In this document: one piece after another, positions 7,380 to 63,349 of the stretch | Layout of the letters: each line of letters starts with the position of its first letter | Numbering within the stretch: the first letter of the stretch is position 1 | DNA from: Eublepharis macularius | Lineage: Eukaryota; Chordata; Lepidosauria; Squamata; Eublepharidae | NCBI RefSeq assembly: GCF_028583425.1 | Contig: NC_072791.1 | Location: 11,117,868-11,181,867 of the forward strand | Length of the DNA: 64,000 nucleotides | Direction of reading: 5' to 3' | Program-made: the position numbers and the translations under genes | The notes under the pieces: generated by a model | Databases searched by the model: none | Seen by the model: only the letters and a program-made list of their open reading frames with translations | Told to the model about the DNA's origin: nothing

Positions 7380-9950
7380 TATTACGTAAATAAGGAAGAA
7401 AGTAAAACCAGGATCCACACGGATCCTCACGGATCCTATGGTTTTTTAAATAGGAAAAAAACAAATGAAACATCAAATCACATATCACAGCCAGGTCCAC
7501 AGACTGAAATATAAAAAACACAGATCCAAAAATATTTGGCCCTGCCACAGTGAAAAAACGTGAATCTGAGACACGGATCCTCATGAATTCATATGATTTT
7601 TACATTGAAACAAAACAAAAAGGCTGTCATATTTTAGATCATGTCCCAGGCTACAGAGAGCAACAAAACAATCACGCATTCACGAATTCGTGGTACTGCC
7701 ACGGCACAAAAACAAGCTAAAAAAGCACAGATCCTCAAGGATCCTCTTGATTTTTACATGGGGCCACCCAAAATACACCATACAATACTAGATCATGTCC
7801 AATGACACAAATGGGACCAGAAAAACCAGCCGTCCACTGCTTCGTGGCACCGCCACAGGGCAAAAACATGGCTCAAAAGGACAGATCCTCTCAGACAGTC
7901 TTGATTTTTACATGGGGCCACCCAAAATCCACCACACGATCCCAGATCATGTCCATTGCCACAAATGGGACCCAAAGATTAAGATGTCCACCCCTTCGTG
8001 GCATAGCCACAGGGCAAAAACTTGGTTCAAAAGCACGGATCCTCACGGATCCTCTTGATTTTTAAATGGGGCCATGCAAAATCCACCATACAATACTAGA
8101 TCAGGTCCATTGCCACAAATGGGACCCAAAAATTCAGCCATCCACCTCTTCGTGGCACCACCATGAAGCAAAAACGTGCTAAAAAGCCACGGATCCTCAT
8201 GGATCCTCTTGATTTTTACATGGGGTCATCCAAAGTACACCATACAATACTCAATCATGTCCATTGCCAAAAATGGGACGCAAAGATTAAGCTGTCCACC
8301 ACTTCGTGGCACCGCCACGGGGCAAAAACATGGCTCAAAAGCACGGATCCTCAAGGATCCTCTTGATTTTTACATGGGGCCACCCAAAATACACCATACA
8401 ATACTAGATCATGCCCAATGACACAAATGGGAACAGAAAAACCAGCCGTCCACCGCTTCGTGGCACTGCCTCTGGTCAAAAACATGGTTCAAAAGCACGG
8501 ATCCTCACGGATCCTCTTGATTTTTAAATGGGGCCATGCAAAATCCACCATACAATACAAGAACAGGTCCATTGCCACAAATGAGACCCAAAGATTCAGC
8601 CATCCACCTCTTCTTGGCACCACCACGGGGCAAAAACATGGCTCAAAAGCACGGATCCTCAAGGATCGTCTTGATTTTTAAATGGGGCCACACAAAATCC
8701 ACCATATAATACTAGATCAAGTCCATTGCCACGAATGGGACCCAAAAATTCAGCCATCCACCTCTTCGTGGCACCACCACAGGGCAAAAACATGGCTCAA
8801 AAGCACGGATCCTCAAGGGTTCACTTGATTTTTACATGGGGCCACCCAAAATCCACCATAGACTCCCAGATCATGTCCATTGCCACAAATGGGACCCAAA
8901 AGTTCAGCCATCCACCGCTTCGTGGCACCGCCACAAAGCAAAAACATGCTAAAAAGGCACGGATCCTCATGGAACCTCTTGATTTTTACACGGGGCCTCC
9001 CAAAATCCACCCTACAATCTCAGATCATGTCCATTGCCACAAATGGCAACCCAAAATTCAGCCTTTCAGTGCTTCGTGGCACTGCCATGGCACAAAAAGC
9101 ACAGATCCTCATGGATCCTCTTGATTTTTACATGGGGCCACCCAAAATCCACCACACGATCCCAGATCATGTCCATTGCCACAAATGGCACCCCAAAATT
9201 CTGCCATTCACTGCTTCGTGGCACTGCCATGACACATAAACATGCATAAAAAGTATGGATCCTCATGAATTTTACACGAGGACACACAAAATCCACCATA
9301 AAATTCCAAATCATGTCCATTGCCTCAAATAGTATGAAAAAAATCAGCAATCCACTGCTTCGTGGAACCACCACAGAGCAAAAACTTGTTTCAAAAACAT
9401 GAATCCTGATGCATCCCCTTGATTTTTACATGGGGCCACCCAAAATCCACCATACAGTCCAAGATCATGTCCACTGCCACAAATGGAACGCAAAAATTGA
9501 TCACTCCACTGCATTGTGGCATCACAGTGCAAAAAGTTGCTTCAAAATCATACGTCATCAAGGATCCGATTGATTTTTTCACAGGGCCACCCAAAATCCA
9601 CCATATAATCCCAGATCATGACCATTTCCATAAATGACACCAAAAAATTGAGCCACCAACCACTTCATGGCATGGCCATGGAGCAAAAACAAGCATAAAA
9701 AGCACGGATCCCCGTGGATCCTCCTGATTTTTACATGAGGCCAACCAAAATCCACCATACAATCCCAGATAATGTCGATTGCCACAACTGGCAGCAAAAA
9801 ATTAAGCCATTCACTGCTTTGTAGCACTGCCACAGCACGAAACATGATTCAAAAGGATGGATCCTCTTGAATTTTACATGAGACCACCCAAAATCCACCA
9901 TACAGTCCAAGATCATAATCATTGCCACAAAAAATCAAGCCATCTACTTC
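7380..9950 (+). repeat. ~154-bp tandem repeat array, forward orientation, part 1
   Basis: About 16 diverged units with a period close to 154 bp, measured from successive 'cttgatttttacatgggg' motifs (for example 8053, 8208, 8361, 8516, 8670, 8826, 8979). Each unit has a paired BamHI-like block (ggatcctcatggatcctc), 'gggccacccaaaatccacca', 'catgtccattgccacaaatg' and 'cttcgtggcaccgccac'. Leftmost units (7380-7700) are the most decayed. Long open frames here arise because many units keep frame; they are not genes. Confidence 0.93.
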
Positions 9951-10460: not shown

Positions 10461-11490
10461 AATCTACTTCTTTGTGGCACTGCCACGGTGCAAAAAGTTA
10501 ATTCAAAAGCACGGATCCTCATGGATCCTCTTGATTTTTACATGGGGCCACCCAAAATCCACCATACACTCCCAGATCACATCCATTGCCAGAAATGGAA
10601 TCCAAAAATTAAGCCATCCATTGCTTTGTGGCACCGCCACAGTGCAAAACATGATTCAATAGCACGGATCCTCATGGATCCTCCTGATTTTTCCATGGGG
10701 CCACCCAAAATCCACCATACACTCCCAGATCACGTCCATTGCCAGAAATGGAACTCAAAAATTTAGCCATCTATCCCTTTGTGGCACCGCCACGGCAGAA
10801 AAAGTTAATTCAAAAGCACGGATCTTCATGGATCCTCTTGATTTTTACATGGGGCCATCCAAAATGCACCATACACTCCCAGATCATGTCCATTGCCACA
10901 AATGGAACCAAAAATTTCAGCCATCCACTGCTTTGTGGCACTGCCACGGTGCAAAACATGAATCAAAAGCACAGATCCTCATGGATCCTCTTGATTTTTC
11001 CATGGGGCCTCCCAAAATCCACCATACAGTCCAAGATCATGTCCATTGCCACAAATGGAAGCAAAAAATCCAGCCATCCACAGCTTTCTGGTACCTCCAT
11101 GGGACAAAAACATGGTTCAAAAGCACAGATCCTCATGGATCTTCTTGATTTTTACATGGGGCCACCCAAAGTCCGCCATACAATCCGAGATCATGTCCAT
11201 TGCCAGAAATATTATAAAAAAAATCAGTCATACACCACTTCGTGGCATCGCCACGGAACAAAAACATGGTTCAAAAGCATGGATTCTCATGGATGCTCTT
11301 GATTTTTACATGGGGCGCCCCAAAATCCACCATACAATCCCATATAATGTCTCTTGCCACAAATGGAACCAAAAAAATCAGGCACCCACCACCACCACGG
11401 GTCAAAAACATGCTTAAAAACCACGGATCCTCATGGATCCTCTTGATTTTTACAGTGGGCCACCAAAAATCCACCATATAATCAATGTCA
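10461..11490 (+). repeat. ~154-bp tandem repeat array, forward orientation, part 2
   Basis: About seven further units identical in layout to part 1. The array ends near 11490, where the repeat gives way to a hAT-related segment. Confidence 0.93.
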
Positions 11491-12420: not shown

Positions 12421-13570
12421 AGTTTTGGATGACCCCTGTAAAAATCTAGGGTATCCACGAGAATTCATGCCTAGGAACCAAGTTTGGAAGGGATCATATG
12501 GTGACTTTAAGGTGACCGTAAGTACAAATACACAAGATCCATGGGGATCCATGCTTTCCAACCAAGTTTTTGCACCATGGCGCTGTGGCAAAAAAGTGGG
12601 TCAGTGATTTTTGTGGTTCAACCTGTGGCTATAAACATAATATGTATTGAATGGTGAATTTTTGCTGACTCCATATAAATATCCACAAAATTCATGAGGC
12701 TCACTGCTTTCAAACCATGTTTTTGTGGCATGGTAGCGCCACAAAGTGGTGAATGGATGATGTTTGTGGTTTAGTCTGAGTCTACAGGCATGATATGGTA
12801 TTGTATGCTCAATTTTGGGTGATCCAGTGTAAAATTCAGAGGATCCATGGCTGGGAACCACCTTTTGCAGTGTGGTGGTGCCCTCAAATAGGGAGTGGGA
12901 GATTTTTGTGGTTCAGTTTGTGGGTATGGATATGGTATTAGATTGTATGGTGAGTTTGGGGGATCTCATGTAAAAATCCAGAGGCTCCATGAGGATCCAT
13001 CCTTTCCAACCACGTTTTTGCAATGTGGCACAGCCAAAAAGTAATGGGTGAGTACTTCTGGGGTTCAGTCTGTGGCTCTGAACATGTTATGTGATTGGGT
13101 GACCCCATATAAAAATCCACAATATCCACGAGGATACATGCATTCCGATGTGGGATTTGAGGCACAATGGTGCGATCAAGAGGTGGATGGATTATTTTTG
13201 AGGTTCAGTCTGCGGCTACGGACATGTTTTGGGATTGCATGCTGAGTTTTGGGTGAGCTCGTATAAAAAGGCATAGGATGCATAAGGATCTGTGCTTTTG
13301 GAACAGGTTTTTGCGCCATAGCGGTGCCACGAAGCAATGGGTGTCTGATTCTTTTGTGCCATTTGTGGCCATGGACATGATCTGGGATTGTATGGTGGAT
13401 TGTGGGTGGCCCCATGTAAAAATCAAGAAGATCCATGAGGATCCATAGGTTTTATGTTTTTGCACCGCGGCGGTGCTACAAAGCTGTGGGTGGCTGAATT
13501 TTGGTCCCATTTGGGCATTAGACATGATCTGGGATTGTATGGTAGATCTTGAATGACTCCATGTAAAAAC
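12421..13570 (-). repeat. ~154-bp tandem repeat array, inverted orientation
   Basis: The reverse complement of the forward unit recurs seven to eight times in diverged form: 'catgtaaaaatcaagaagatc', 'catgaggatccat', 'gtttttgcaccgcgg' and 'gtggccatggacatgatctggg'. Orientation flips relative to 7380-11490. The right end is near 13570. Confidence 0.88.
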
Positions 13571-13589
13571 CAAGGGAACTGTAAAAACT

Positions 13590-15309: not shown

Positions 15310-15665
15310 TTAACCATCAACTTGGTCAGTTTTCAGGAAACCACCACAACGTCCCAAGGATGTTAGTTTTTTTAAAAAGACACAATCCTCTTGCTGCTGT
15401 AACTGATTTTCCTGTCCATCTTCACAGGGGTGTAATGATAAACCATCCTCAAGAGGAAACTGAGTAGGGGGGCATCTTTTTGACTTCCTATTTTTTCTTG
15501 TCTCTGTCTTGACTGGAATAAATTCTTCTATTGGCTTTGTATCTGAGTCTTCCAGTAAATTTGTCAGTAAATTAAACAGCAAAGCTATCCATGCAAGTCC
15601 AAAAATAATCCAGATAGCGACCAAAATTCGGTAATAGGGAAAATATCTCTTGTTATGCTGTCTCC
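15310..15665 (-). CDS. KCNK16: KCNK16-like exon 5 (TM4 and cytoplasmic tail, stop)
   Basis: The acceptor is 'tctgtgcttccag' and the stop TAA is at 15312-15310. The first two bases complete Gly214. Then come RQHNKRYFPYYRILVAIWII and FGLAWIALLFNLLTNLLE (fourth membrane segment, about residues 228-250), followed by a 70-residue polar tail with a basic patch (RKNRKSKR). Arg226 just before TM4 sits where TASK-2 and TALK-1 carry the arginine that senses external alkaline pH; TALK-2 has Lys there. Retention of Arg supports KCNK16 or KCNK5 rather than KCNK17. The tail is not recognisably conserved. Confidence 0.93.
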
Positions 15666-16412
15666 CTGGAAGCACAGAGAAAAGAAGCATTGTGTGATGG
15701 GAGGCAAGGGAATGGATTTGGAAAAAAGACAGTTCAGGTTACCTGAACGTCCCTGCATAATGGGGCAGAAGTGTGTGACCAGATGAGATAGCAAAAACAC
15801 ACAGCAGAATGGCTTTGTGCTATGAAGTCCCCCTTTTAAATGTAACTTTAGCAGGTGAAGTATAGTAGTTAGATCTGGGATCCCCAATATAGTATCCATG
15901 GGCACCATAGCACCCACTGACACCTTTCCTGGCACTCACTACGTTTTTTAAAGTGGGTGAGGATAGGTGGGACACGTGCCCAGTGGGGCTTCTGATTGAC
16001 TACTGGACATCTGATTGGCTGGGCAGATTAAAATAAAATTGTTTCAGTGGCAGCTGCCACTTGGTCCAGTGTGTTTTTAAAAATCACCTCCCCTTTCTCC
16101 TCTGCATTTGGTCTTATTCAGTGTGTGTCTCCATCTCCTGTGGCAGCCATTTTATGGTTGTGCCCTAGAGTTGCCAAGTCCCTATGCCCTCCGCTGGCGC
16201 GGGGGGTGGGGGAGCCCAGTAGGATCTTCTTTGTGTTGTGCATACAAAGTGCACCCTCCTGGTATCAGCACAAAGACATCCCTTCTGGTTGTGACATTTT
16301 GCCAGCAGTGGACATGCTCCTGTGCATTGTGTGGGGCAAGTTGAGCCAGTTTGGGTCCAGAATTGGTCCCTGTGAACGGCAGGCGTATGCCCACTGTCTG
16401 CCTGATGATGTC

Positions 16413-17340: not shown

Positions 17341-17658
17341 ATAACTTGGAAAATATCATTCGGGTGAACAGCATATATCTTCCCCTTCCACTAAAGAAGT
17401 CCAATAATCTTCTCTTTTATATGACAAAATAAGTTACAAGGATGCAATAGCTCCAAAAGTACATATTACTTTAAATCTACATTAGCATTTGGGGGATTTT
17501 GTAGCACAAAGTCTGTCTGAGCAAATAGAGGCCCTTTTCACACTACATACCTGCTTCCAGAACATTGCGAAATGCAGTGCAAAAAACGCAGAAGATGGCG
17601 TCTTCTCGTGCCAAAAATACATACAGTTCTGTTGGGAAACTGTTGCAGGAAGACTTAC

Positions 17659-17827
17659 CTATTATATAATCTCCAAAACCAATTGTGCTGAGGGTAATAA
17701 ATGCAAAATAAATTGCTTCACTGTAGGTCCAGTCCTCCATCACTTGGAAAATGAGTGACGGCACACAGAGGAAAACTAGAATTCCCATCACCAGGAAGAA
17801 CAGAAGAGTCAAAACTCTTGTCGTTTT
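17659..17827 (-). CDS. KCNK16: KCNK16-like exon 4 (TM3 and second pore)
   Basis: 169 bp, residues 158-213 plus one base of Gly214. The acceptor is 'tttttctttccag' and the donor GTAAGT. Residues TTRVLTLLFFLVMGILVFLC form the third membrane segment. EDWTYSEAIYFAFITLSTIG then leads into the second selectivity filter GFGD (207-210). In human TALK-1 the equivalent stretch is W-S-F-S-E-G-F-Y-F-A-F-I-T-L-S-T-I-G-F-G-D. This exon is the most conserved part of the gene, and its second-pore Phe (GFGD rather than GYGD) is standard for the family. Confidence 0.95.
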
Positions 17828-18469
17828 CTGGAAAGAAAAACAAATGGCAGATCTGGCACCTTTGAACTGCCCGAGTCATCCTTTCGGCCTTACCCATAGA
17901 CACCAGCCATATATGTTTCTAAAACGATCTGTACCCCTCTGTATTTGGGTACATTCTAGATATTGGGCTTTATACTCTAGTGCTGCAGAAATAGCAGAAT
18001 TTAGCATCTTGGGAATCTCTTGATTTCGTTCTACAGAAGGAGGTTTCTAGCTTTTGTTGTGGAAAATTGGATCATGAGGGCATTGTGTTGGAAAATTTTA
18101 GGAAAACAAGACAACATCATGGCATGTTGAGCCCCATTGTTCAGGAGACGACATTTCTCTCTTCCTTGGCTTGAATCTAGTTCTCTACCATGTGTCCCTT
18201 CTTATCCTTAATTCCATGCCTCATTCATAGCTATTAATACCAATGCTACGAGGCAACTTGGACACACTGTGGCTTCTATGCACTCTTTAGTGGCCCTCCA
18301 GGACAACTGGTTGTCCATAGTATAAGGCAGAAAGCTGGACTAAGTAGACTGCTAGTCTGATCCAACAGGGCTCTCCTTACGTTCTTTGCTCTCTATGGAC
18401 TGGTTCTAAACTCAGAGTGATTTGAAAATGTTGCAAGTAGAATATAAAAAGGAAAGGGTCTTTTTAGTG

Positions 18470-20190: not shown

Positions 20191-20376
20191 GTTCACGGAA
20201 ATGTTGGTTCTGGGATGTTACGTAATATTTCGGGCAAGTCCACAAATGCAAAAAAGATAGGGGTGGTAAGGGAAGTCAGTTGTCTGTGGCTTCACTGAGT
20301 AGTGGCGCTAACCTTGCAGCTAGTAAAGAAACTTGCATTTAAAATAATTCCGGGGTAAATTAGCAAAGTGCCTTAC

Positions 20377-20543
20377 CTTCTTCACACCCTTTGTATACAG
20401 GCATTTAGCAAGCCTTTCACAAAGCAGCGAGAGAATCTTGCCGATGTGGTGCAAGAACACAATGTTCAAGGGGATTCCAAAGCCAGCAAAAACAACGCAA
20501 AAGAGCTGGCCACCTGCTGTTTTGGGAGAGAGGTTGCCGTAGC
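20377..20543 (-). CDS. KCNK16: KCNK16-like exon 3 (first filter, TM2)
   Basis: 167 bp; it starts with the last two bases of Gly102 and ends in phase 0. The acceptor is 'ttttccccccaacag' and the donor GTAAGG. The exon opens with GYGN, the end of the first selectivity filter, then LSPKTAGGQLFCVVFAGFG and IPLNIVFLHHIGKILSLLCE (second membrane segment) and a basic loop (KCLYTKGVKK). The IPLN[VI]xFLxH[LI]G wording is closer to human KCNK16 than to KCNK17 or KCNK5. Confidence 0.95.
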
Positions 20544-21366
20544 CTGTTGGGGGGAAAAACCACAAAGGGTTGGATAAAGCAACTTGGATTTATCGTTATT
20601 CTAAGGAAGCTGCAGAGTAGGGTGCTAAAATAAGAGAGGCCTGGTTTGGACGTTTAGTTGTCTGGAAGCTTCCTAATTCACTTTCCTCCTCCTTGGACTG
20701 GCCAAATCTTCTATCTCCTGGTTGTTAATCTAGTTAAATTTATGTGTGAAGGGCCACATTCTCACATTCATGCCATCAGGATTTTCTCATACTGGAGGGT
20801 TTCCCAGATGAAACAAATTCTCACACTTCCCACCCACCCGATAAGTGATACATTCCACATAGTTTAAAGGCTAGACTGTGTAGTTTTCGGCTTGAATTCA
20901 TGCAGACTTAGAAGGCACTGCAGAATAAAAATGTTATCTACTATTCCAAATGCACCAATGTACAGAGCCAAGAAAGATAGCCTGGGCTATGTCACATGCC
21001 AAATGGAACTGTTTCTCGCACATGAGAACAGGACAAGCCCTATTCTTGGGTATTATGCACTGTATGTTGTGGCACTTGTTCAAGATTGCTTTGTGCAGAT
21101 TAATGACTCCTTAATATATTTTAATCCACCTTTTATACTCGCTTATTAGAAAAATTCCACTGTAACAAAGAAGTGAATTTTTCTTTGTGGTCAGAGAAGA
21201 GATGTGGTCTGTGTAAGCAACTGTGGTTTTGTGTGTCGGTACTCTGGACCTGTATCACATATTGGTCAGTGTTGGATGTGGATGGGAGAAACCTGAGTTC
21301 AGAACCCGGTCTAGCCACAATATGCACTGGGTGAACATGAACTTGTTAGAATCCCACAGCCTAACT

Positions 21367-21896: not shown

Positions 21897-22322
21897 GCTA
21901 TCCCAACAACAGCGCTTGCTGCTATGAATAACACACAGTTACTGTAATACTTTCAAAAATCTTTAAAGTGCTCAGTGCCAAAGTGTACTTTACACAAAAG
22001 GACGACAACGTCCCTTAAAGGTAGTCCCTGGGAGCTTTCAAAGTCCTTCAATTAGCGTGTATTCTTGCTTGAAGAGCTCAAGACTTCCTTGAGGTTGATA
22101 AACAGTTAATCCCAAGTGCAGGTACCATTGAACAAGGGAACCCGACATGCATCGAGACTACCTTTAAGGGACGTTGTCGTCCTTGTTATTCATGCTTGAA
22201 TTTGGTTTTGGATTTCTTGTAAATTATTGTGTAAAGTACACTTTGGCAGTGAGCACTTTAAAGATTTTTGATAGTATTACAGTAACTGTGTGTTATTCAT
22301 AGCGGCAAGTGCTGTTGTCAGG
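21897..22322. repeat. Long imperfect palindrome (~430 bp)
   Basis: Left arm 'aacaacagcgcttgctgcta' through 'aaagtgtactttacacaa' and 'gacgacaacgtcccttaaag' recurs in reverse order and complement at 22160-22322. A roughly 120-bp loop separates the arms. There is no ORF. It may be a retroelement terminal-repeat hairpin like those at 39861 and 41006, but the sequence is different. Confidence 0.8.
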
Positions 22323-22950
22323 ATGAGAGTAAGAAACTGGCATTCTTGGTGGGAAGAAATCCTCCCAAATCCACTTTTAATATAGCAACACTTCTAAAAG
22401 GGCAAAGGCCTGATTTGGTTTTATTTTTAGAATCAGACTCCAGACAACTTCAGACACATTTTTAAAAAATATCGCATGCTGACATTTTGTTATAAAAGTG
22501 AAAAAGAACAGCCGCTTCCATGCTTCATATTTTTTCCTTCTTGCTTCTACCTTTTTGATAAGGCAAAATGCATTTTCTTCATGTGTAAAAGGAAATAGCA
22601 TAATTTCAATCATTTCCTGTGAGGGGAATATATTGCCTTCTTTAGCTCACCACCCCGCACCATCTTCCATTATCTTACAGCAGCCTTGGGAATAATTCAT
22701 AATATACTTGACTGGAGTGTTAGGGAATATGGGAGATCTTGTCTCTTATCAGTGTCGCCAACAAATGGCTCTTTCTACAGCGAGAGAAAGGAAGGTGAAA
22801 TGGGGGTGGTTGAAATGTCAAGGACAATGGGTGCGTTGCAAATGCAAGGAAAATCTTGAAGGTGAACTGTGGGCCGCTTCAGAGATCTTGGACAAGGGGT
22901 AAGTTGGGAAAACTGAATGTTCATTTAGAGGAGACACCTCGTTGATTTAC

Positions 22951-23059
22951 CGATTGTGGATAACGTAGAGCCCACAAAGAAGAAAGAATTGCTGAAATCC
23001 CAGTTGCTGTGCTCTTGTCCTGTCAGATCCATTCCCATCCGGACAGCTTCCATAAGTTT
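22951..23059 (-). CDS. KCNK16: KCNK16-like exon 2 (cap end and first pore helix)
   Basis: This short exon (109 bp) was found by looking for the missing pore segment. The acceptor 'tgccttcctttgcag' precedes AAACTTATG and the donor is GTAAAT. It reads KLMEAVRMGMDLTGQEHSNW, then DFSNSFFFVGSTLSTI plus the first base of Gly102, matching human TALK-1 around NWDFGSSFFFAGTVVTTI. Phase 0 in and phase 1 out fit exons 1 and 3 exactly, giving STIGYGN across the junction. The total coding length becomes 996 bases (331 aa plus stop), within the usual size range of KCNK16 and KCNK17. Confidence 0.93.
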
Positions 23060-24149
23060 CTGCAAAGGAAGGCAAACTTCCATTTGAACGCTGTAGCCCT
23101 AGAATGCAGTCAGCCACCAGTGATTTTGGGGCTGCATACCTCTTTGACTTTTCTTCCGAATCCTGGCCGCTTAACTCCCCCTTCAGATTTCAGTGCAGTG
23201 TTTCAAGAGTTCTCTTCCAAATTTTCTGTTTCTGTGCAGGCAGAAAATTTGGAGGAGAACCCGGGATTCGGAGGAAAACCCGTAATGGTGTAGGACCAAA
23301 AGTGGCAAAAATCACCCATGCAAAAAAGACCATAGGCCCCTGTGTTCTCTATCCTCCCATAGCTTCTGACAGGAAATGTTTTCAAAAGCCCCATTTCTGT
23401 GTGTCCAAGAGCTTAGAAAAATCCCACTGTTTTCCTGGGTCCCTACCCAGCAAGGAACCCCTTTCCCTTACTCCTAGATGTACCAAATTCTGTCCACAGG
23501 TCCCTTCCCTCCTATTTTTGTTCCTTCATACTTATTCCAAGCTGCTTCTTGAACTCATCTTTGGAGTTCACATCCTGGCCATTCATTTTGCTCAGGATAG
23601 CTGGAAGAATAAAGTCAGAAGGAAAGTTCTGATAACTTCTGGGCCAAACAGAAGCCTCTATTGGTGAACGTGCTGTTCATTTTTATTCTTCCACCCACAC
23701 CAAAATGGACTGAGGATTAGGGGTGTGCAAGCCAAAAATTTTCGGCTATAGCCGAAAGTAGAAAGCCGAAAGAAGATTCTCTATCGTTAAAGCTGAAAGC
23801 CGAAACAAGAATCTCTTTCGGCTTTCGGCTTTCGGGATTCTTTCGGCATTATTTCGGCATTCTTTCGGCTTTTTTCTATGGGAAAATGCCTCCGTCTTCC
23901 AGGACGCCTGGAGGAGGCATTTTCCCACCGAATAAGCCCAAAATTGGTGGGGACCTTCCTCTAACCCTTCTCTAACAACCACCCAAGTTTCAGACAGATT
24001 GAACTTTGGGGGGCCATGTTATGGCCCCCCAAAGCAGGTCCCCCCATCCTCCCATAAGAAAGCGAAGGAGCAGCATATTGTTAGCATGCTGCTGCTCATC
24101 TTTCTTCATTATTTCCTATGGGGAAAAAATGAAGAGGCAGGCTTCCTTT

Positions 24150-24650
24150 GCCAGGGGTGGCATTTTGCATGCAAAATGCCCCCTTACCCTCAGGGGCCCT
24201 TCTCCCACCCCCCCTCCCACCCCCCACCAAGGCTCAGCCTGCTCCCACTTGGGGGGGCCATTTCATGGCCTCCCCAAGTAGGTGCTCTAATCTCTACCAC
24301 TGACAGCTGGGGGAGGCTTGTGTTGCCAGGGGTGGCATTTTGCATGCAAAATGCCCCCCAACCCTCTGGGGCCCTTCTCCCACCCCTCCTCCCACCCCCC
24401 ACCAAGGCTCAGCCTGCTCCCACTTGGGGGGGGGCATTTCATGGCCTCCCCAAGTAGGTGCTCTGCTCTCATCTCTACCACTGACAGCTGGGGGAGGCTT
24501 GTCTTGCCAGGGGTGGCATTTTGCATGCAAAATGCCCCCCAGCCCTCTGGGGCCCTTCTCCCACCCTTCCTCCCACCCCCCACCAAGGCTCAGACTGCTC
24601 CCCCTTGGGGGGGCATTTCATGGCCTCCCCAAGTAGGTCCTCTCAGCCCC
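24150..24650. repeat. ~178-bp tandem units in the left palindrome arm
   Basis: Three copies, each with 'gccaggggtggcattttgca', the self-complementary ATTTTGCATGCAAAAT (about 24163, 24336, 24516), and a C-rich 'cccaccaaggctcag' block. Mirrored at about 26520-27000. Confidence 0.9.
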
Positions 24651-25148
24651 TAAAGTCCACCCCTTACAGCCCCACACAAACCCAATTCCCCCCCAGCTGC
24701 CACACACAGACCCAAATCCCCACATTAGCCCCTCACAGACCCAAATCCACCCCCACCTGCCCCACACCCATAACCCCAGGAACAGGCTGGCAAAGGCCAG
24801 CCCTCTCCCTTTGTTCCCTATGCTGGGAACTTCTAAACTCTCTTTCCCTGGGCAATTCTGCACAGCCCAGGGGTGCCACAATGGTGGGCACACTTCTGAG
24901 TGCCAGCTGGTCCCTGTGAAAGAGCACCTGAACCACAGACACCCTCCCTCAAATTCCCCCACCACCTACAGAGATGGCTGGCCAGCCAGCCCCATTGTTC
25001 CCTATGATGGGAACCAACTGCACAACAAAGAATAAAACAAGAACAACACAAAATAAAGTTTTAAATTTTTTTTCTCCCTTCCAAAGTACAAGTAGGCAAA
25101 GCATTATGACACATTACACCAGCAGTCCCCCACACAGAAAAATTAAAA

Positions 25149-25560
25149 CAAAACTCACTTAACATCAGAGAATCACAAAGCACAATTCCTGTCAAAAACA
25201 CTTTATTTCTTGAACAGCTTTAGGTTACACAGCAGGGGGGAACACCAAAGGGCATGGCAGCACTATCTTACACAAAAATAACACAACTCACTTAACATCA
25301 GAGAATCACAAAAGCACAATTCCTGTCAAAAACACTTTATTTCTTGAACAGCTTTAGGTTACACAGCAGGGGGGAACACCAAAGGGCATGGCAGCACTAT
25401 CTTACACAAAAATAACACAACTCACTTAACATTAAAGAATCACCCCAAAAATTGCTGTCAAAAGCACTTTATTTCTGTAACTGCTTTAGGTTACACAGTA
25501 GGAAGGCACCACAGAGCAGGAAAGCAGTGTACTACACAAAAATAACACAACTCACTTCAC
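25149..25560. repeat. ~135-bp tandem units near the palindrome centre (left)
   Basis: 'aacacaactcacttaacatc' and 'ctttaggttacacagcaggg' recur about every 135 bp. Each unit has an AATAAA on the minus strand (within 'cactttatttcttg'). The inverted set occupies 25600-26010. Confidence 0.9.
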
Positions 25561-26519
25561 ATCAGAGAATCACACAAACACAATTGCTGTCAAAAACAGT
25601 GAAGTGGGTTGTATTATTTTTTGTAGTACATTGCTATCATGCCCTGTTGTGCCCTCCTACTGTGTAACCTAAAGCTGTTCAAGAAATAAAGTGTTTTTGC
25701 CAGGAATTGTGTTTTTGTGATTCTCTGATGTTAAGTGAGTTGTGTTATTTTTGTGTAAGATAGTGCTGCCATGCCCTTTGGTGTTCCCCCCTGCTGTGTA
25801 ACCTAAAGCTGTTCAAGAAATAAAGTGTTTTTGACAGGAATTGTGCTTTTGTGATTCTCTGATGTTAAGTGAGTTGTGTTATTTTTGTGTAAGATAGTGC
25901 TGCCATGCCCTTTGGTGTTCCCCCCTGCTGTGTAACCTAAAGCTGTTCAAGAAATAAAGTGTTTTTGACAGGAATCGTGCTTTGTGATTCTCTGATGTTA
26001 AGTGAGTTGTGTTATTTTTCTGTGTGGGGGACTGCTGGTGTAATGTGTCATAATGCTTTGCCTACTTGTACTTCGGAAGGGAGAAAAAAAAATTAAAACT
26101 TTATTTTGTGTTGTTCTTGTTTTATTCTTTGTTGTGCAGTTGGTTCCCATCATAGGGAACAATGGGGCTGGCTGGCCAGCCATCTCTGTAGGTGGTGGGG
26201 GAATTTGAGGGAGGGTGTCTGTGGTTCAGGTGCTCTTTCACAGGGACCAGCTGGCACTCAGAAGTGTGCCCACCATTGTGGCACCCCTGGGCTGTGCAGA
26301 ATTGCCCAGGGAAAGAGAGTTTAGAAGTTCCCAGCATAGGGAACAAAGGGAGAGGGCTGGCCTTTGCCAGCCTGTTCCTGGGGTTATGGGTGTGGGGCAG
26401 GTGGGGGTGGATTTGGGTCTGTGAGGGGCTAATGTGGGGATTTGGGTCTGTGTGTGGCAGCTGGGGGGGAATTGGGTTTGTGTGGGGCTGTAAGGGGTGG
26501 ACTTTAGGGGCTGAGAGGA

Positions 26520-27000
26520 CCTACTTGGGGAGGCCATGAAATGCCCCCCCCCCAAGTGGGAGCAGTCTGAGCCTTGGTGGGGGGTGGGAGGAAGGGTGGG
26601 AGAAGGGCCCCAGAGGGCTGGGGGGCATTTTGCATGCAAAATGCCACCCCTGGCAAGACAAGCCTTCCCCAGCTGTCAGTGGTAGAGAAAAGAGCACCTA
26701 CTTGGGGAGGCCATGAAATGGCCCCCCCAAGTGGGAGCAGTCTGAGCCTGGGTGGGGGGTGGGGGGAAGGGTGGGAGAAGGGCCCCTGAGGGCTTGGGGG
26801 CATTTTGCATGCAAAATGCCACCCCTGGCAACACAAGCCTCCCCCAGCTGTCAGTGGTAGAGATGAGAGCACCTACTTGGGGAGGCCATGAAATGGCCCC
26901 CCCAAGTGGGAGCAGGCTGAGCCTTGGTGGGGGGTGGGAGGAGGGGTGGGAGAAGGGCCCCTGAGGGTAAGGGGGCATTTTGCATGCAAAATGCCACCCC
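26520..27000. repeat. ~178-bp tandem units in the right palindrome arm
   Basis: Inverted mirror of 24150-24650, with the three self-complementary ATTTTGCATGCAAAAT blocks retained. Confidence 0.9.
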
Positions 27001-27647
27001 TGGCAAAGGAAGCCTGCTTCTTCATTTTTTCCCCATAGGAAATAATGAAGAAGATGAGTAGCAGCATGCTAACAATATGCTGCTCCTTCGCTTTCTTATG
27101 GGAGGATGGGGGGACCTGCTTTGGGGGGCCATAACATGGCCCCCAAAGTCCAATCTGTCTGAAACTTGGGTGGTTGTTAGAGAAGGGTTAGAGGAAGGTC
27201 CCCACCAATTTTGGGCTTATTCGGTAGGAAAATGCCTCCCCCAGACGTCCGGGAAGACGGAGGCATTTTCCCATTGAAAAGCCGAAAGAAAGCCGAAAGA
27301 ATCCCGAAACGTTTCGGCTTTTTTCTTTCGGCTACCCGAAACGTTTCGGCATTCCCCGAAACGTTTCGGCATTCCCCGAAAGAAGCCGAAACACTTTTGT
27401 TTCGGCATTCTTTCGGCATTCTGAATGCCGAAACGCACATCCCTACTGAGGATAATGTAGGAAGGCAGGGACCCAGAAGATATCTGTATCACGTCCCAAG
27501 AAATGGCCTCAACTCAGGGCCGTGTTTGCAGTGACAGTGCCGCTCCAAAGGGTAATATTTGGGTCCATAGCACCATAAAGACCAGCCAGATTTCCAAGAT
27601 ATGAGTTTTTTGAGAGTCAGAGCTCCCTTTGTCTAATAAAGTCTGCA

Positions 27648-29040: not shown

Positions 29041-29174
29041 CACCAAACTGGCTCTAATTCTGTGATTTATGATCACAGAATTAGAACAGGAAATTCTGCA
29101 GCCGCCCTACGAGTAATTTTCCAACCCAGACCTAGTTGATAACCAGCTCCAGCCTTGCTACATGGGTGGCCTAC

Positions 29175-29369
29175 CGTCACAAAGATTTCTACTTCCACAG
29201 GACTGAGAGATGTGAAATTCTTCAGAAAATCCTCCTTCATTCTTAACACGGAGGCTTGCTGTTTCCTCTCTGCATCCCTCTCCAGAACTTGAAATATCCA
29301 GGCTCCTACGAGGAGGTAAGTGAAGTAGCCAGCGATCAGCATGCAGATCTGCAATTTGCTGTGGATCAT
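29175..29369 (-). CDS. KCNK16: KCNK16-like exon 1 (start, TM1, extracellular cap)
   Basis: Start codon in a strong context (accaccATGA); donor GTAGGC in phase 0 after Thr65. Residues 6-26 (LQICMLIAGYFTYLLVGAWI) are the first membrane segment, followed by FQVLERDAERKQQ and LKNFTSLSPVEVEIFVT. K2P channels are dimers with two pore loops per subunit that carry background K+ current across the plasma membrane. TALK-type members are activated by external alkalinity, and TALK-1 is prominent in pancreatic islet cells in mammals. Asn51-Phe-Thr is a glycosylation site conserved in TALK channels. Residue 54 is Ser where TALK and TASK-2 channels have the cap cysteine. An AG at 29377-29376 six bases before the ATG looks like an acceptor, so a 5' non-coding exon may exist. 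Confidence 0.93.
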
Positions 29370-29907
29370 GGTGGTCTGTATGGGAATGAGAGCAAAAGAA
29401 GAAGCGGATACGAATCAGTAAACAAGTCCTTATTCGTATTTCCCCTGGATGTCAAACTCAGAAATGAAAGTCCTAGTTGGACCGCTGCCATTTCCTCTGG
29501 GATTTCATATAACCACCAACCTTCAAATACATTTATAAGAGAGATTAAATAATAATAACAGTGAAGGGATTTCCTAAGTAACAGCCTCTCAAGAAAATTG
29601 GTCAAAGTATCAGACGCACCAGGCCAAAATACACCAGTTTTGTGCGGTTTTGTTTCTTCCCAGGAAGAAAAAAAAATCCGACAGTAACTTTGGAGCACAA
29701 GTACATTTTATCTGAAGGCGTTGATCAGAATGTGTTTCCAAAATGGGGGGGGGGAGGTCCGATGTCATCACAGGTTCCTTAATCCCTACCCCTTCCAGTT
29801 CCTGCATTTTTTCACCAGTTGTTCCCCCAGTTGGAGAAAAGTTTATTTCAAGTCCAGGTTAAGTTTATTTCACGTCTTAAAGCCCAGCTGCAGCAGGCGG
29901 GAGTTAA

Positions 29908-31396
29908 ACATCCTGAATATATGTATTGTCGAAGGCTTTCACGGCCGGAGAACGATGGTTGTTGTGGGTTTTCCGGGCTGTATTGCCGTGGTCTTGGCAT
30001 TGTAGTTCCTGACGTTTCGCCAGCAGCTGTGGCTAGCATCTTCAGAGGTGTAGCCCCAAAAGACAGAGATCTCTCAGTGTCACACTAGCACCTTTAAGAC
30101 TAACCAATTTTATTTTATTGTAGCATAAGCTTTCGAGAATCAAGTTCTCTTCATCAGATGCCTGATCCGAACTGGTCAAATACAGAAGAGGAGGGGAGGG
30201 GAAAGAACGGGACATATATCACAAGGGTCCTGGGTGGAAGACCTTTCCTTGCATACAGACAGCCCCCCAACCTGAAACGACTTCTCACTTACAATCATGA
30301 ATCGGCTAGCAGAGTCACCAGCACAGGTACCAGGCCCTGCAACAGACCCAGATGCCAGCTCTGCCCCTATATCTACCCAGGGAATACAATTACAGGACCC
30401 AATGGCATCAACTACACTGTCTCTGGCTCTTACAGCTGCTCATCCTCCAATCTGATATATGCCCTCATGTGCCAACAATGTCCTTCTGCTCTGTACATTG
30501 GACAAACCAGCCAACCTCTACGCAAAAGAATAAATGGACACAAATCTGACATTAGAAATGGAAACGTCCAAAAACCAGTGGGAGAACACTTCAATCTACC
30601 AGGACATTCCACCAAAGACTTAAAAGTCGCTGTGGTTCAACAGAAACCCTTCAAAAACAAAATCCAACGGGAGGCTGCTGAATTGGAATTCATATGCAAA
30701 TTTGACTCTGTCAAGCTGGGACTGAATAGAGACTATGAATGGTTATCACATTATCACAGGTAACAGATTTCCTTTACAGAGGCATGGTCTGGGGGAGCCC
30801 AGAGACGCCTGGTGTGGGCTTTGTTTGTCAATTATCTCAGCCTGAGTGCGTGTGGGCTTTCGGGGACCACAGTTCTCTTTGTCAGATGCAGCTGGCAGGG
30901 AGAGCTGTGGTTATCGAGGGCTTATACTACATAGGAATTGTATACCTTCACTGCGGCAAACTGACTCCACACCAAAAGGAGATGTTTACATTTACAAGCA
31001 AAGGAATGTTTTGATTGCCTTCACACTAATTGCATTCTGTCCCCTTGTGATATATGTCCCGTTCTTTCCCCTCCCCTCCTCTTCTGTATTTGACCAGTTC
31101 GGATCAGGCATCTGATGAAGAGAACTTGATTCTCGAAAGCTTATGCTACAATAAAATAAAATTGGTTAGTCTTAAAGGTGCTACTGGACTCTTTTTGATT
31201 TTGCTACTATAGACTAACACGGCTAACTCCTCTAGATCAGTGTCACACTGACACTGGTGACACTGAGAGACCTCTGTCTTTTGGTGCTACACCTCTGAAG
31301 ATGCCAGCCACAGCTGCTGGCGAAACATCAGGAACTACAATGCCAAGACCACGGCAATACAGCCCGGAAAACCCACAACAACCATCCTGAATATAT
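29908..31396. mobile_element. Penelope terminal-repeat hairpin (family A) split by a family B element
   Basis: Left part 29923-30086 ('gtattgtcgaaggctttcac', 'ttccgggctgtattgccgtg') is inverted at 31250-31382. A 14-bp target duplication catcctgaatatat lies at 29909-29922 and 31383-31396. The same hairpin occurs uninterrupted at 39861-40137. Confidence 0.9.
30087..31236 (+). mobile_element. Penelope-like element (family B) with GIY-YIG endonuclease ORF
   Basis: Flanked by the duplication tcagtgtcacact (30074-30086 and 31237-31249). Terminal segments 'agcacctttaagactaacca' and 'ttggttagtcttaaaggtgc' are inverted to each other. They extend through 'atcaagttctcttcatcaga' and 'atatatcacaaggg'. 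An open frame at 30158-30763 encodes the endonuclease: LIYALMCQQCPSALYIGQTS (the GIY-YIG core as ALYIGQT), RKRINGHKSDIRN (Arg and His of the active site), GEHFNLPGHS and EAAELEFICKF. The reverse transcriptase is missing, so the element is 5'-truncated yet keeps both terminal repeats. The known family role is nicking target DNA for retrotransposition. Confidence 0.92.
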
Positions 31397-34386: not shown

Positions 34387-34925
34387 TAATAACAACAACA
34401 ACATTCGATTTATATAACGCCCTTCAGGACAACTGAACACCCACCCAAAGTGGTTTACAAAATATGTTAAATCAGGGCTTTTTTTCAGCAGGAACGCGGT
34501 GGAACGAGTTCTGGCACCTCTTTAAAAAGGTTACATGGCCTGTGGCCCCGCCCCCTGATCTCCAGGCAGAGGGGAGTTTAGATCACCCTCTGAGCTGTGG
34601 AGGTGGAGATCAGGGGGCGGGGCCACTGGCCATGTGACCATTTTCGCCGAGGGCAATTTAAACTTTAAAAAACTCCCCCTTGTTCCAGCTGACCCAAAGT
34701 GACGTCATTGTGTGGTCCTGAGTTCCACCACCTCTTTTCCCAGAAAAAAAGCCCTGATGTTAATATTATCCCCACAATAATCACCCTGTGATGTGGGTGG
34801 GGCTGAGAGAGCTCTGAGGGAGCTGTGACTGACCCAAGATCACCCAGCAGGCTTCAAGCGGTGGAGTGGGGAATCAAACCAGATTAGAGTTTTGCAGCTC
34901 TTAACTACTACACCAAACTGGCTCT
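34387..34925 (-). repeat. Sauria-type SINE interrupted by a hAT MITE
   Basis: Tail 'cgatttatataacgcccttc' at 34407-34426, head 'ctacaccaaactggctct' near 34908-34925. The body is split at 34473. Confidence 0.88.
34473..34756. mobile_element. hAT-type MITE with CAGGGCTTTTTTTC termini
   Basis: Inverted ends CAGGGCTTTTTTTC and AAAAAAAGCCCTG. The target 'atgttaat' is duplicated on both sides with a one-base slip at the left. Same family as 55419-55744. Confidence 0.88.
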
Positions 34926-39199: not shown

Positions 39200-40345
39200 G
39201 GAAATGGAAGGAGGGCCTTATTGTTACTGGAATTGGTCTCCTTGTGAGTAGAGGGAATTAGTGGCAAGGAGGAAGGCCATGTGAGAGGGGTAACAACAGG
39301 ATACTCCACCAATTTTTACGGGGTCCCCTCCCCAAGGCAACAGATGAGACTGGTGATCTTAAATAAAAGAGTATTTTTATTTAAAGGAGAAAATGCACAC
39401 ACACAAAAAGTAATAAATGGTTTGCACAAGCACACAGAGTCCTAGGAAATTAGCCAGAGGTTGGAATAGAGTGAGTGATTCAGGGTATAATTACCTATCC
39501 AGGAAGTGGGGCTGGTCCACAGAGGAAGAGAGCTTCAAACGTCTTGCATCTTCAGCCAGGGAGGAGGGTTCAGAGAAAGAGAGACTCTGAGGGCACTACG
39601 CTGGGTAAGTGTGTACAATTTGAATGGGGCAACAGCCCTGGTTCTGGCAAAACATGTTCTGAGGCTGGGGAGCCCCCTTTCTCAACCATTGGGACAAAGA
39701 CCTTAAAGGTCATCTCCTGGGAATGACAAAGATTGGATTACGTTTGATTGCTGCTACCGGGGTGGAACAAAAGAGTAAGATAGGATTATCCTGGGGCTAG
39801 ACTAAGAAGCGGTTGCTAATTAACGTCCCTGGAGCCAGGCTGATGAATTTAGATCTCGATGTATTGTCGAAGGCTTTCACGGCCGGAGAACGATGGTTGT
39901 TGGGGGTTTTCCGGGCTGTATTGCCGTGGTCTTGGCATTGTAGTTCCTGACGTTTCGCCAGCAGCTGTGGCTGGCATCTTCAGAGGTGTAGCACCAAAAG
40001 ACAGAGATCTCTCAGTGTCCTGTCTCTCTGTCTTTTGGTGCTACACCTCTGAAGATGCCAGCCACAGCTGCTGGCGAAACGTCAGGAACTACAATGCCAA
40101 GACCACGGCAATACAGCCCGGAAAACCCCCAACAACCAATTTAGATCTCGATTACATGTTTTCAGGAAGAAACTACAAACTTATCAGTGCTGATTGATGG
40201 CCCATCGATTGTAGGATAGGAATCAATCATGGAGGAGGGGAGATTGGAATGCTGCATTAATTCAGGGCCCTGTGATTTTTATATTACTCACAGGCCTGTA
40301 TCAAACAGAGGCCGGGGCTGACTGCTTACATTATAACCAATGATG
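39200..40345. mobile_element. ~1.1-kb insertion within CR1, unidentified family
   Basis: The CR1 reading is interrupted between 'agactcatttaggaaatgga' and 'gtagggacagtgttagaaaa'. The inserted DNA ('ttttacggggtcccctcccc', 'aataaaagagtatttttatt') is not CR1 and has no ORF; it could be an LTR-like element. It was itself hit by the hairpin at 39861. Confidence 0.5.
39861..40137. mobile_element. Solo Penelope terminal-repeat hairpin (family A)
   Basis: 277-bp palindrome: 'gtattgccgtggtcttggca', 'gacgtttcgccagcagctgt' and 'ggtgtagcaccaaaagacag' recur inverted. A 15-bp duplication aatttagatctcgat lies at 39846-39860 and 40138-40152. No internal sequence. Confidence 0.93.
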
Positions 40346-52630: not shown

Positions 52631-53514
52631 TAGACATGGGCACGAACAGAAAAAAAAACCCAACACCCTGTTCGTCGTTCATTGCCATCCACGAACAACA
52701 AACCTGGATAAACATGAACTGTTCCCGAACATGTTCATTGTTTGAGGGGGCCAGCACCAACCCCAACCCCCCCACTTAGCCTTCCTCCCCTCAAATCCAC
52801 TTACCTGGCCCTTTAAAGATCCCTTTAAACTATCAGCTGGCAGGCGGCAGGGGGGGATTCCCGCCTATCAGCTGATAGTTTAAAGGGCCCTGTCCTGGCA
52901 AAAACAGCAGTGTCTGCTGGCAGCTAGTTACAAACTGATCTTCCCAATGTCCAATACCCACCAAATTTGCAGGGGACATAGTCCTCACTGTCCTCTGAAG
53001 ACCCCCCCCCCAAGTTTCAGAGAGATTGCACCCTGGGAAAGGTATGATCCACAGGTCTCCCCCTTGGCTGTCATTTTCTCTTCATAGTGGCAAAAACAGC
53101 AGTGTCTGCTGGCAGCTACTTTGTGGGGTTACCAACTGGCCTTCCCAATGTCCAATACCCACCAAATTTGCAGGGGACATAGTCCTCACTGTCCTCTGAA
53201 GACCCCCCAAGTATCAGAGAGATTGCACCCTGGGAAAGGCATGATCCATGGGTCTCCCCGTTGGCTGTCATTTTCTCTTCACCGTGGCAAAAACGGGACT
53301 CTCTGCTGGAAGTACTTTGAGGGGTTAAAGCCAGAAGGAGTTCAGAAAGAGTTCAGTCCCTCCCTGCCTCCGGTTGCCAAGGGGATTGATTGCAGGTGCC
53401 AGACTGTCTGGCTTGACGAACAGCTGCCGAAGGCACGAACAGCTTGTTCGTGAACAGCAGATTGGGCTGTTCGTGGTTTTTCTCTGTTCGTAATGCTGTT
53501 CGTGCCCATGTCTA
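52631..53514. mobile_element. 884-bp non-autonomous hAT element
   Basis: Ends TAGACATGGGCACGAAC and its exact inverse (gttcgtgcccatgtcta). Perfect 8-bp duplication CTTGGGAC at 52623-52630 and 53515-53522. The interior has two direct copies of a ~200-bp unit ('ggcaaaaacagcagtgtctg', 'cttcccaatgtccaataccc'). No transposase. Confidence 0.95.
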
Positions 53515-55418: not shown

Positions 55419-55744
55419 CAGGGCTTTTTTCTGGGAAAAGAGGTGGTGGAACTCAGTGGTGGAACTCAGGACCGCACATTGAGGTCACTTTGGGTCAGTT
55501 GGAACAAGGGGGGAGTTTTTAAAAGTTTAAATCGCCCTCGGGGAAAATGGTCACATGGCCGGTACCTCCGCCCCCAGATCTCCAGACGGAGGGGAGTTTA
55601 GATTGCCCTCCGCACCACTGGTGTGGAGGCCAATCTAAACTCCCCTCTGTCTGGAGATCAGGGGGTGGGGCCACTGGCCATGTGACCATTTTCAAGAAGT
55701 GCTGGAACTCCATTCCACCGTGTTCCTGCTGGAAAAAAGCCCTG
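55419..55744. mobile_element. hAT-type MITE with CAGGGCTTTTTTC termini
   Basis: Inverted ends CAGGGCTTTTTTC and GAAAAAAGCCCTG approximately. Perfect 8-bp duplication CCCCAGTT at 55411-55418 and 55745-55752. An internal inverted repeat is centred near 55622. Same family as 34473-34756. Confidence 0.95.
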
Positions 55745-62276: not shown

Positions 62277-62287
62277 TTATTGTGATA

Positions 62288-63326
62288 GTTGTTGTGGGTT
62301 TTCCGGGCTGTATTGCCGTGGTCTTGGCATTGTAGTTCCTGACGTTTCGCCAGCAGCTGTGGCTGGCATCTTCAGAGGTGTAGCACCAAAAGACAGAGAT
62401 CTCTCAGTGTCTTAAGCACCAAAAGACAGAGATCTCTCAGTGTCACAGTGTGGAAAAGATGTAGGTCATTTGTATCTACTCAGGAGGGGTGGGGTTGAGC
62501 TGAGTCATCCTGTAAGAGTTTCCCAGGGTGTGGAATGCTAATGGCGGGAGGCTTCACTGTATCCTGAGGAGGTTCTTTTGCATATGGATTGGTACTTGAT
62601 GTGCTAATCTTCTCTGCAGGGCTATTGTCAGGGATAGAATGTTTTGTTAGCCTGGTGTTTTTCAGAACTGGAAACCATGCTCTGTTCATTCTTAAGGTTT
62701 CTTCTTTCCTGTTGAAGTTTTGCTTATGCTTGTGAATTTCAATGGCTTCCCTGTGCAGTCTGACAAAGTAGTTGGAAGTGTTGTCCAGTATTTTGGTGTC
62801 CTGGAATAAGATACTGTGCCCTGTTTGCGTTAGGCTATGTTCAGCCACTACTGATTTTTCAGGTTGTCCAAGTCTGCAGTGTCTTTCATGTTCTTTTATT
62901 CTTGTCTGGATGCTATGCTTTGTGGTCCCGATGTAAACTTGTCCACAGCTGCAGGGTATACGGTATACTCCTGCAGAGGTGAGGGGGTCTCTACTGTCTT
63001 TTGCTGATCGTAGCATCTGTTGTATTTTTCGGGTGGGTCTGAATACTGCTTGAAGGTTATGCTTTTTCATAAGCTTTCCCATCTGATCAGTAATTCCTTT
63101 GATATATGGCAAAAACACTTTTCCTGTAGGAGACTGTTTTTCCTTGGTTGTTTGATTCATCCCGGGTTTGATTGCTCTTCGGATTTCATTTCTGGAGTAG
63201 CCATTTTCCTGAAGTGCGTGGTTTAGATGATTAATTTCCTCATTGAGAAAGTGCGGCTCACATATCCGTCTTGCACGATCCACTAATGTTTTCATTATGC
63301 CTCTTTTCTGTCGGGGGTGGTGATAC
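62288..63326 (-). mobile_element. 5'-truncated Penelope-like element (family A)
   Basis: On the minus strand an open frame at 63295-62480 (271 codons) covers the end of the reverse transcriptase (HFLNEEINHLNHALQENGYS) and a GIY-YIG endonuclease (GVYRIPCSCGQVYIGTTKHS, then TRIKEHERHCRLGQ, VAEHSLTQTGHSI and REAIEIHKHKQNFN with the catalytic Glu). The 3' side is the family A terminal repeat (62288-62450), including a small duplicated 'accaaaagacagagatctct' block. An 11-bp duplication ttattgtgata sits at 62277-62287 and 63327-63337. The GIY-YIG residues look complete, so decay is slight. Confidence 0.93.
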
Positions 63327-63349
63327 TTATTGTGATACTTTGATAGTAT

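Follow-up and report, generated by a model that had tools for sequence, protein, structure and literature searches.

A probable hAT-type foldback transposon with unlike, motif-rich ends in Eublepharis macularius

What kind of mobile element is built as a palindrome of several kilobases, and does its symmetry extend to its ends? These questions are raised by an element of 3728 bp (positions 23718-27445) in a window of 64,000 nt from Eublepharis macularius (NC_072791.1, 11,117,868-11,181,867, forward strand; the window is the whole stretch of DNA analyzed, and all positions below are window coordinates). An earlier sequence-only reading had described this element as a giant, near-perfect hAT foldback palindrome within a potassium-channel gene. 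Our results indicate that it is probably a DNA transposon of the foldback type, non-autonomous and most likely a member of the hAT superfamily (Ac/Hermes-like). The proposed structure is supported by an 8-bp target-site duplication of the form nTnnnnAn, by TAGGG termini and by a subterminal motif, but the palindrome is not seamless.

We searched the whole window for 8-bp repeats flanking 12-bp inverted ends with at most two mismatches. This search yielded 19 rows: the giant element, 15 rows within its palindrome, which follow from the element itself, a second hAT-like element, and two shorter stretches (21969-22255 and 55419-55744). The same search conducted on 10 mononucleotide shuffles of the window returned 0 or 1 match each. 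The giant element carries both terminal inverted repeats and a target-site duplication, as a mobile unit does: the left terminus TAGGGGTGTGC and the right terminus in inverted reading, TAGGGATGTGC, agree at 10 of 11 positions (consensus TAGGG[G/A]TGTGC). These observations confirmed the 3.73-kb size, the hAT-like termini and the perfect 8-bp duplication that had been claimed for this element. The short termini are of the C/TAGGG type found in hAT elements, and nTnnnnAn is the target preference of Hermes (PMC10368747). The parts of the element are listed below, with CpG contents as observed/expected ratios (o/e).

23710..23717, no strand: left target-site duplication CTGAGGAT, identical to 27446-27453, fits nTnnnnAn
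23718..23728, plus strand: left terminal inverted repeat TAGGGGTGTGC, 10/11 against the right end
23718..23872, plus strand: left end with subterminal repeat cluster, 10 TTTCGG/CCGAAA, CpG o/e 1.57
23873..24147, plus strand: left arm, outer unique part, 8/273 mismatches against the right arm
24148..24643, plus strand: left arm, tandem array A, ~2.8 units of 175/181 bp, GGCATTTTGCATGCAAAATGCC in each
24604..25146, plus strand: left arm, middle part, 2/540 mismatches against the right arm, no CpG; its first 40 bases are also the end of array A; contains a minor 29/30-bp array (24669-24767)
25147..25598, plus strand: left arm, tandem array B, ~3.4 units of 134 bp, runs into the spacer; units 1-2 homogenized with the right arm, unit 3 diverged
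25561..25598, no strand: spacer of 38 bases at the palindrome centre, flanked by CACTTCAC and GTGAAGTG, read by eye
25599..26023, minus strand: right arm, array B, inverted
26024..26513, minus strand: right arm, middle part, inverted
26514..27006, minus strand: right arm, array A, inverted, 175-bp units
27007..27277, minus strand: right arm, outer unique part, inverted
27278..27445, minus strand: right end with subterminal repeat cluster, 14 TTTCGG/CCGAAA, CpG o/e 1.98
27435..27445, minus strand: right terminal inverted repeat GCACATCCCTA, inverted reading TAGGGATGTGC
27446..27453, no strand: right target-site duplication CTGAGGAT, 8/8 bp match

Long inverted repeats with internal tandem repeats make up most of the element, which is the architecture of a foldback transposon. 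In the self-comparison of the window, the top-scoring inverted match was that of 23841-27309 with itself (95.6% over 3492 columns). From the outside inwards, each arm is composed of a motif-rich end, an outer unique part, array A, a middle part and array B. The two tandem arrays per arm proposed by the sequence-only reading were recovered, with 175/181-bp units in array A (about 2.8 copies per arm) and 134-bp units in array B (3.2-3.4 copies per arm), and a minor 29/30-bp array was found in the middle part of each arm. Each of the 175/181-bp units includes one perfect 22-bp palindrome (GGCATTTTGCATGCAAAATGCC), with six copies in total. The loop of ~40 bp described previously corresponds to the 38-base spacer. 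The size of 3728 bp sets this element apart from ordinary miniature inverted-repeat transposable elements (MITEs), which measure a few hundred bp and occur in many homogeneous copies.

The ends of the element are organized differently. The hexamer TTTCGG/CCGAAA is found 36 times in the window and 24 of these copies fall in the 155 left and 168 right terminal bases (323 bp), with none in the arms; mononucleotide-shuffled ends contained at most three copies in 2000 trials. This motif is clustered near both ends, as expected of a hAT element, and its 10 left and 14 right copies represent candidate transposase sites. The global inverted alignment of the ends presented 21 mismatches over 125 columns and 12 gap events. 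Inside the 11-bp termini, we compared 122 left bases (23729-23850) to 135 right bases, using shuffles of 11-base blocks as a control. The score of the palindromic register was -26, relative to a mean of -35.8 for the shuffles (standard deviation 18.4), and 152 of 500 shuffles scored as well or better; the ends aligned in direct orientation scored -10. The ends are asymmetric in sequence, both in their numbers of motifs and in the lack of a palindromic register inside the termini. The hypothesis of one seamless palindrome was rejected because the ends align no better than block-shuffled controls, and the earlier statement that the whole element is one palindrome fails at this point.

The ends and the arms also differ in CpG content (expectations were computed locally in 50-base blocks). 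The CpG o/e was 0.04 and 0.07 in the two arms and 1.57 and 1.98 in the two ends, and the middle part of the left arm contained 0 CpG against 30.7 expected. For comparison, the lowest value among 569 windows of 1.7 kb elsewhere was 0.12 and the median was 0.32. TpG and CpA were jointly raised in the arms (290 and 285 observed against 222 and 219 expected, respectively), as expected of methylation decay, and a similar rise was observed in the rest of the window. The ends comprise 24 motif copies and 29 CpGs, and their high CpG content is largely due to the TTTCGG/CCGAAA motif itself. The finding is the contrast between ends and arms, not the level in the ends.

We further analyzed the divergence between the two arms. 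Aligning them and counting their differences, as the sequence-only reading had suggested, gave 42 mismatches and 10 gap events over 1673 aligned columns (23873-25562 against the right arm), or 97.5% identity without gaps. The mismatches were distributed as 8/273 in the outer unique part, 14/450 in array A, 2/540 in the middle part, 2/284 in units 1-2 of array B and 16/126 (12.7%) in the inner part of array B, at the palindrome centre. The description of the arms as near-perfect holds for their middle, with 4/824 mismatches at 24604-25430, and does not hold for the remainder of 23873-25562, with 38/849 (P = 4.5e-8; Fisher test; an optimistic value because the borders of the block were picked after seeing the profile). 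Limiting the comparison to the unique parts, the middle (2/540) still differed from the outer part (8/273; P = 0.003). Independently of any block borders, the longest mismatch-free run reached 461 columns (leaving out one 3-base gap), whereas 20000 permutations gave a mean of 167 (P = 0.0001). In array A, positional partners were closer to each other than to same-arm neighbours for LA1-RA1 (98.9%) and LA3-RA3 (99.3%), and units 1 and 2 of array B were 98.5-100% alike across the two arms. This uneven identity favours an old inverted duplication whose mid-arms were later homogenized by arm-to-arm conversion. A conversion boundary perhaps lies inside unit R3, which has diagnostic changes in common with L3 (by eye).

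Another hAT-like element was found in the same window:

52631..53514, no strand: second hAT-like element, 884 bp, duplication CTTGGGAC, 19-bp perfect termini TAGACATGGGCACGAACAG

The duplication of this element also fits nTnnnnAn. Its hexamer GTTCGT/ACGAAC was found in nine copies, relative to five in the rest of the window, and its interior contains two copies of a 197-bp repeat. Searched against the rest of the window, part of this interior matched the outer arm of the giant element (73% over 75 columns, E 1.8e-6). The CpG o/e was about 1.04 in each of the two ends (110 bases) and 0.14 in the interior. The body is not palindromic: besides the termini, we detected one internal inverted stretch of 67 bases (78%) and others of at most 27 bases. 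The single open reading frame (ORF) scanned, at 53088-53453, overlaps this element and gave no Pfam match. The two elements have an interior stretch and the CpG contrast between ends and interior in common, and they differ in tip motif and body form.

Several shorter repeats with inverted ends were also observed. The stretches 55419-55744 and 34473-34757 are related elements of ~0.3 kb with CAGGGCTTTTTT termini; in the former, the interior is palindromic in part and the 8-bp duplication (CCCCAGTT) does not fit nTnnnnAn, and the latter shows an imperfect duplication (by eye). The stretch 21969-22255 (287 bp) has inverted ends TGCTCAGTGCCA with one mismatch, is flanked by CTTTAAAG and lies within a longer inverted pair (21906-21997/22227-22318).

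No recognized coding capacity was found in the giant element. None of the 16 stop-to-stop ORFs of at least 100 amino acids overlapping it gave a meaningful Pfam match (best CHD5, E 0.38), and Rfam at gathering thresholds returned no match within it. We also scanned two collections of viruses and prokaryotes (viral_contigs and genome_contigs), using one pattern per scan. In viral_contigs, the end motif was found in two stretches (L001-L002), with no match to the element longer than 23 columns, and the tip of the second element in three stretches (L003-L005), two of which had 18 bases in common with this element (L003-L004) and one only the 17-base pattern (L005). These five stretches were judged to be chance matches and rejected as related copies. 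The inner-arm patterns were found in no stretch of viral_contigs or genome_contigs. The scans covered viral and prokaryotic collections with one pattern each, and these absences therefore say little about the host.

Among known systems, Ac/Ds, Herves and Hermes resemble the element in duplication pattern or in the design of their ends. Ac/Ds of maize likewise makes duplications of 8 bp and has 11-bp termini containing TAGGGATG; its hexamers cluster in the 200 bp nearest each end, and its non-autonomous derivatives hold unrelated filler (PMC3260210). The right terminus TAGGGATGTGC has TAGGGATG in common with the Ac/Ds end C/TAGGGATGAAA (PMC3260210). In contrast, the Ac/Ds hexamer is AAACGG and no giant palindrome is described in the portions of the source available to us (PMC3260210). 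Indeed, AAACGG/CCGTTT is absent from our element (0 copies) and its termini read TAGGG[G/A]TGTGC rather than C/TAGGGATGAAA, which sets it outside the Ac/Ds family proper. Herves, a hAT element of Anopheles, also presents a CG-containing subterminal motif at both ends and 11-bp imperfect termini, but it encodes a transposase; arrays have been described for its left end, and a palindrome has not (PMC3143072). Ac, Herves and Hermes all bind subterminal repeats (PMC3260210, PMC10368747, PMC3143072).

The body, for its part, resembles foldback elements of flies. Tetris, a foldback transposon of Drosophila virilis proposed as a member of Mutator, is similar in size and likewise has arms of three possible domains, no conserved ORFs, inverted repeats of up to 1,735 bp that contain tandem repeats of ~220 bp, and 8-9 bp duplications in three complete copies (PMC4079207). 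Unlike our element, it comes from a fly and has a middle domain of variable size; our element is distinguished from Tetris by its 8-bp nTnnnnAn duplication, its TAGGG terminus, its 38-base spacer and clusters of end motifs located outside the part of the inverted repeat that can be aligned (PMC4079207). Galileo also presents long inverted repeats, tandem arrays in some groups and non-autonomous copies with two terminal inverted repeats; its length changes through array expansion and recruitment of internal sequence, and extra transposase sites lie inside the repeats (PMC3573991, PMC3688188). However, its inverted repeats reach 1,264 bp in D. mojavensis, its transposase is of the P type, and its THAP sites also occur inside tandem repeats, whereas the hexamer of our element is absent from the arms (PMC3573991, PMC3688188). 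The available excerpts of two further papers contained no closer relative (PMC10990002, PMC11008031). Among the literature matches listed (titles and abstract openings of open-licence papers), no vertebrate hAT foldback was found, which is a weak absence. The foldback architecture is known from Tetris and Galileo, and the element is not categorically new. The TU elements of sea urchin are also foldback elements with long inverted repeats, and reportedly have 8-bp duplications and tandem outer repeats.

Other origins of this structure can be envisioned. An inverted duplication formed at or shortly before insertion, and modified since by few mutations and by repeat slippage, would explain the perfect target duplication as well as the overall identity of the arms and their 461-column run without mismatch. 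However, divergence between the arms is far from even, by both the post hoc block and the longest-run tests, and peaks at the centre (16/126); a simple recent birth was rejected on this uneven profile. Arms nearly devoid of CpG next to ends that keep it also suggest that the body resided in the genome long before insertion, although a CpG-poor source sequence would likewise produce CpG-poor arms. We consider recent birth unlikely and, between the two histories offered by the sequence-only reading (recent birth or arm-to-arm conversion), the divergence profile favours conversion, acting on an older duplication. Errors in library construction and assembly are known to generate long palindromes, and a chimeric read or a mis-assembly could have mirrored one arm. 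But 42 mismatches and 10 gap events separate the arms, the ends are unlike, the 1-kb flanks have only a 17-base match in common (E 0.34) and the perfect 8-bp duplication brackets the terminal repeats exactly. An assembly mirror was rejected on the differences between arms, the unlike ends and the unrelated flanks, and we regard an artefact as highly improbable.

Such arms could also belong to a foldback element from a different superfamily that makes 8- to 10-bp duplications, for instance Mutator (as proposed for Tetris), P (as shown for Galileo) or Merlin. Galileo does show that long inverted repeats of a P-superfamily element can hold tandem repeats (PMC3573991). Nevertheless, the 8-bp duplications fit nTnnnnAn in both the giant and the second element, and the TAGGG terminus and the hexamer clusters are as in Ac/Ds, so that another superfamily has in our view little chance of being correct. 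The palindrome might instead matter as a regulatory source, with transcription of the intron giving a ~1.7-kb hairpin that is processed to small RNAs or edited. Foldback RNAs of MITEs have been proposed to feed endogenous small interfering RNAs in Aedes (PMC3259105), and 400+400 mid-arm bases joined by an 8-base linker fold at -936 kcal/mol (without shuffled control). Yet the element has no Rfam match, and folding is no proof of function because any inverted repeat folds in this manner. Cruciform extrusion and small RNAs from the element would be physically plausible, but we find it doubtful that the element serves as such a source.

Several observations also weigh against a hAT foldback with an old, locally converted body. 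The superfamily assignment relies exclusively on the duplication and the end features, no transposase was recognized among the 16 ORFs that overlap the element, and the rest of the 64-kb window contains no second full copy of it. The innermost end motifs, next to the arms, still align between both sides; the ends may therefore have been palindromic once and have diverged later by slippage of their repeats. The positional pattern in array A is broken by LA2-RA2 (93.7%), LA2 being closer to RA3, RA1, LA1 and LA3. In array B, L3-R3 are only 85.3% alike and R3 is nearer to L1/L2 (89-90%). The central divergence could then reflect a shift between non-equivalent 134-bp units rather than age, and the uneven divergence could stem from a mosaic produced by recombination between family copies.

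In the hAT foldback that we favour, a transposase encoded elsewhere would recognize the TAGGG termini and the clustered TTTCGG/CCGAAA sites, and the element would have moved by cut and paste. Its body would be an older inverted duplication with mid-arms homogenized by arm-to-arm gene conversion, from which the palindrome centre and the two end clusters would have escaped. The persisting unlikeness of the ends may matter for mobility, because asymmetric ends are required by Hermes, which also belongs to the hAT superfamily. Hermes retained little activity when both of its ends were left ends and had none when both were right ends; making only the first 50 bp asymmetric again gave no rescue, and end asymmetry was considered an important requirement (PMC10368747). 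Methylation might also intervene: lower CpG methylation was accompanied by more Tol2 excision in medaka, and Ac transposase binding is inhibited when its sites are methylated (PMC3878927). By analogy with these systems, a methylation-sensitive tip would be plausible in our element. A bolder and, taken as a whole, rather unlikely proposal is that of a lineage of vertebrate hAT foldbacks with a division of labour between tips and body. Selection would maintain unlike, CpG-bearing tips as address tags for left and right, and these tips would form a methylation-sensitive transposase switch, while the body would be free to become a giant palindrome that is self-repaired by conversion and loses its CpGs by methylation decay. 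In this proposal, families would also swap tips and bodies as modules, as the second element (52631-53514) suggests with its partly related interior and different tip motif.

We finally located the element relative to the genes of the window. Open frames on the minus strand match consecutive parts of K2P potassium channels, in order (residue ranges are from solved TASK2, and the frames are larger than the exons):

29073-29414, minus strand: K2P frame 1, best E 1.7e-4, TASK2 residues 8-62 (E only 0.67 against TASK2)
22928-23098, minus strand: K2P frame 2, E 1.4e-6, TASK2 residues 61-101
20323-20589, minus strand: K2P frame 3, E 1.8e-9, TASK2 residues 98-154
17543-17875, minus strand: K2P frame 4, E 3.7e-18, TASK2 residues 154-219
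15310-15738, minus strand: K2P frame 5, weak, E 0.016, TASK2 residues 211-248

The giant element lies in the intron between frames 1 and 2, in agreement with the potassium-channel intron reported earlier, and the second coding block follows about 0.65 kb downstream of it. The element was probably inserted there, in intron 1 of the K2P gene, as one unit. The coding blocks of this gene are flanked by an inverted pair (4439-5011/30607-31201) made of ~0.2-0.4-kb blocks, 88-96% alike and about 26 kb apart, which is a possible inversion substrate. The window contains other repeats. The stretches 30104-30763 (GIY-YIG domain match, E 1.7e-5) and 62480-63376 (sub-threshold T5orf172 match only) are, in our judgement, Penelope-like fragments. 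Near-identical stretches of ~130 bp occur at 29954-30083 and 31257-31386 (recurring inverted), at 62284-62411 and, as a short palindrome, at 39894-40138. Satellite-like arrays of a ~154-bp unit occupy 7687-9931 and 10470-11478, and related 147-bp units are found at 13307-13574 in inverted orientation relative to these arrays.

What distinguishes this element is the combination of hAT-like ends on a foldback body, unlike tips, a conversion-like profile and a CpG contrast. A hAT foldback in a vertebrate would show this architecture in one more superfamily. Hermes needs asymmetric ends and a foldback body is symmetric; the unlike tips are therefore the most telling detail of this palindrome, whose asymmetry appears to be limited to some 150-170 bp at either tip. 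With ends and body of a single element contrasting in CpG content, control of hAT mobility by methylation becomes testable, and kilobase-sized palindromes within introns bear on genome stability and on double-stranded RNA.

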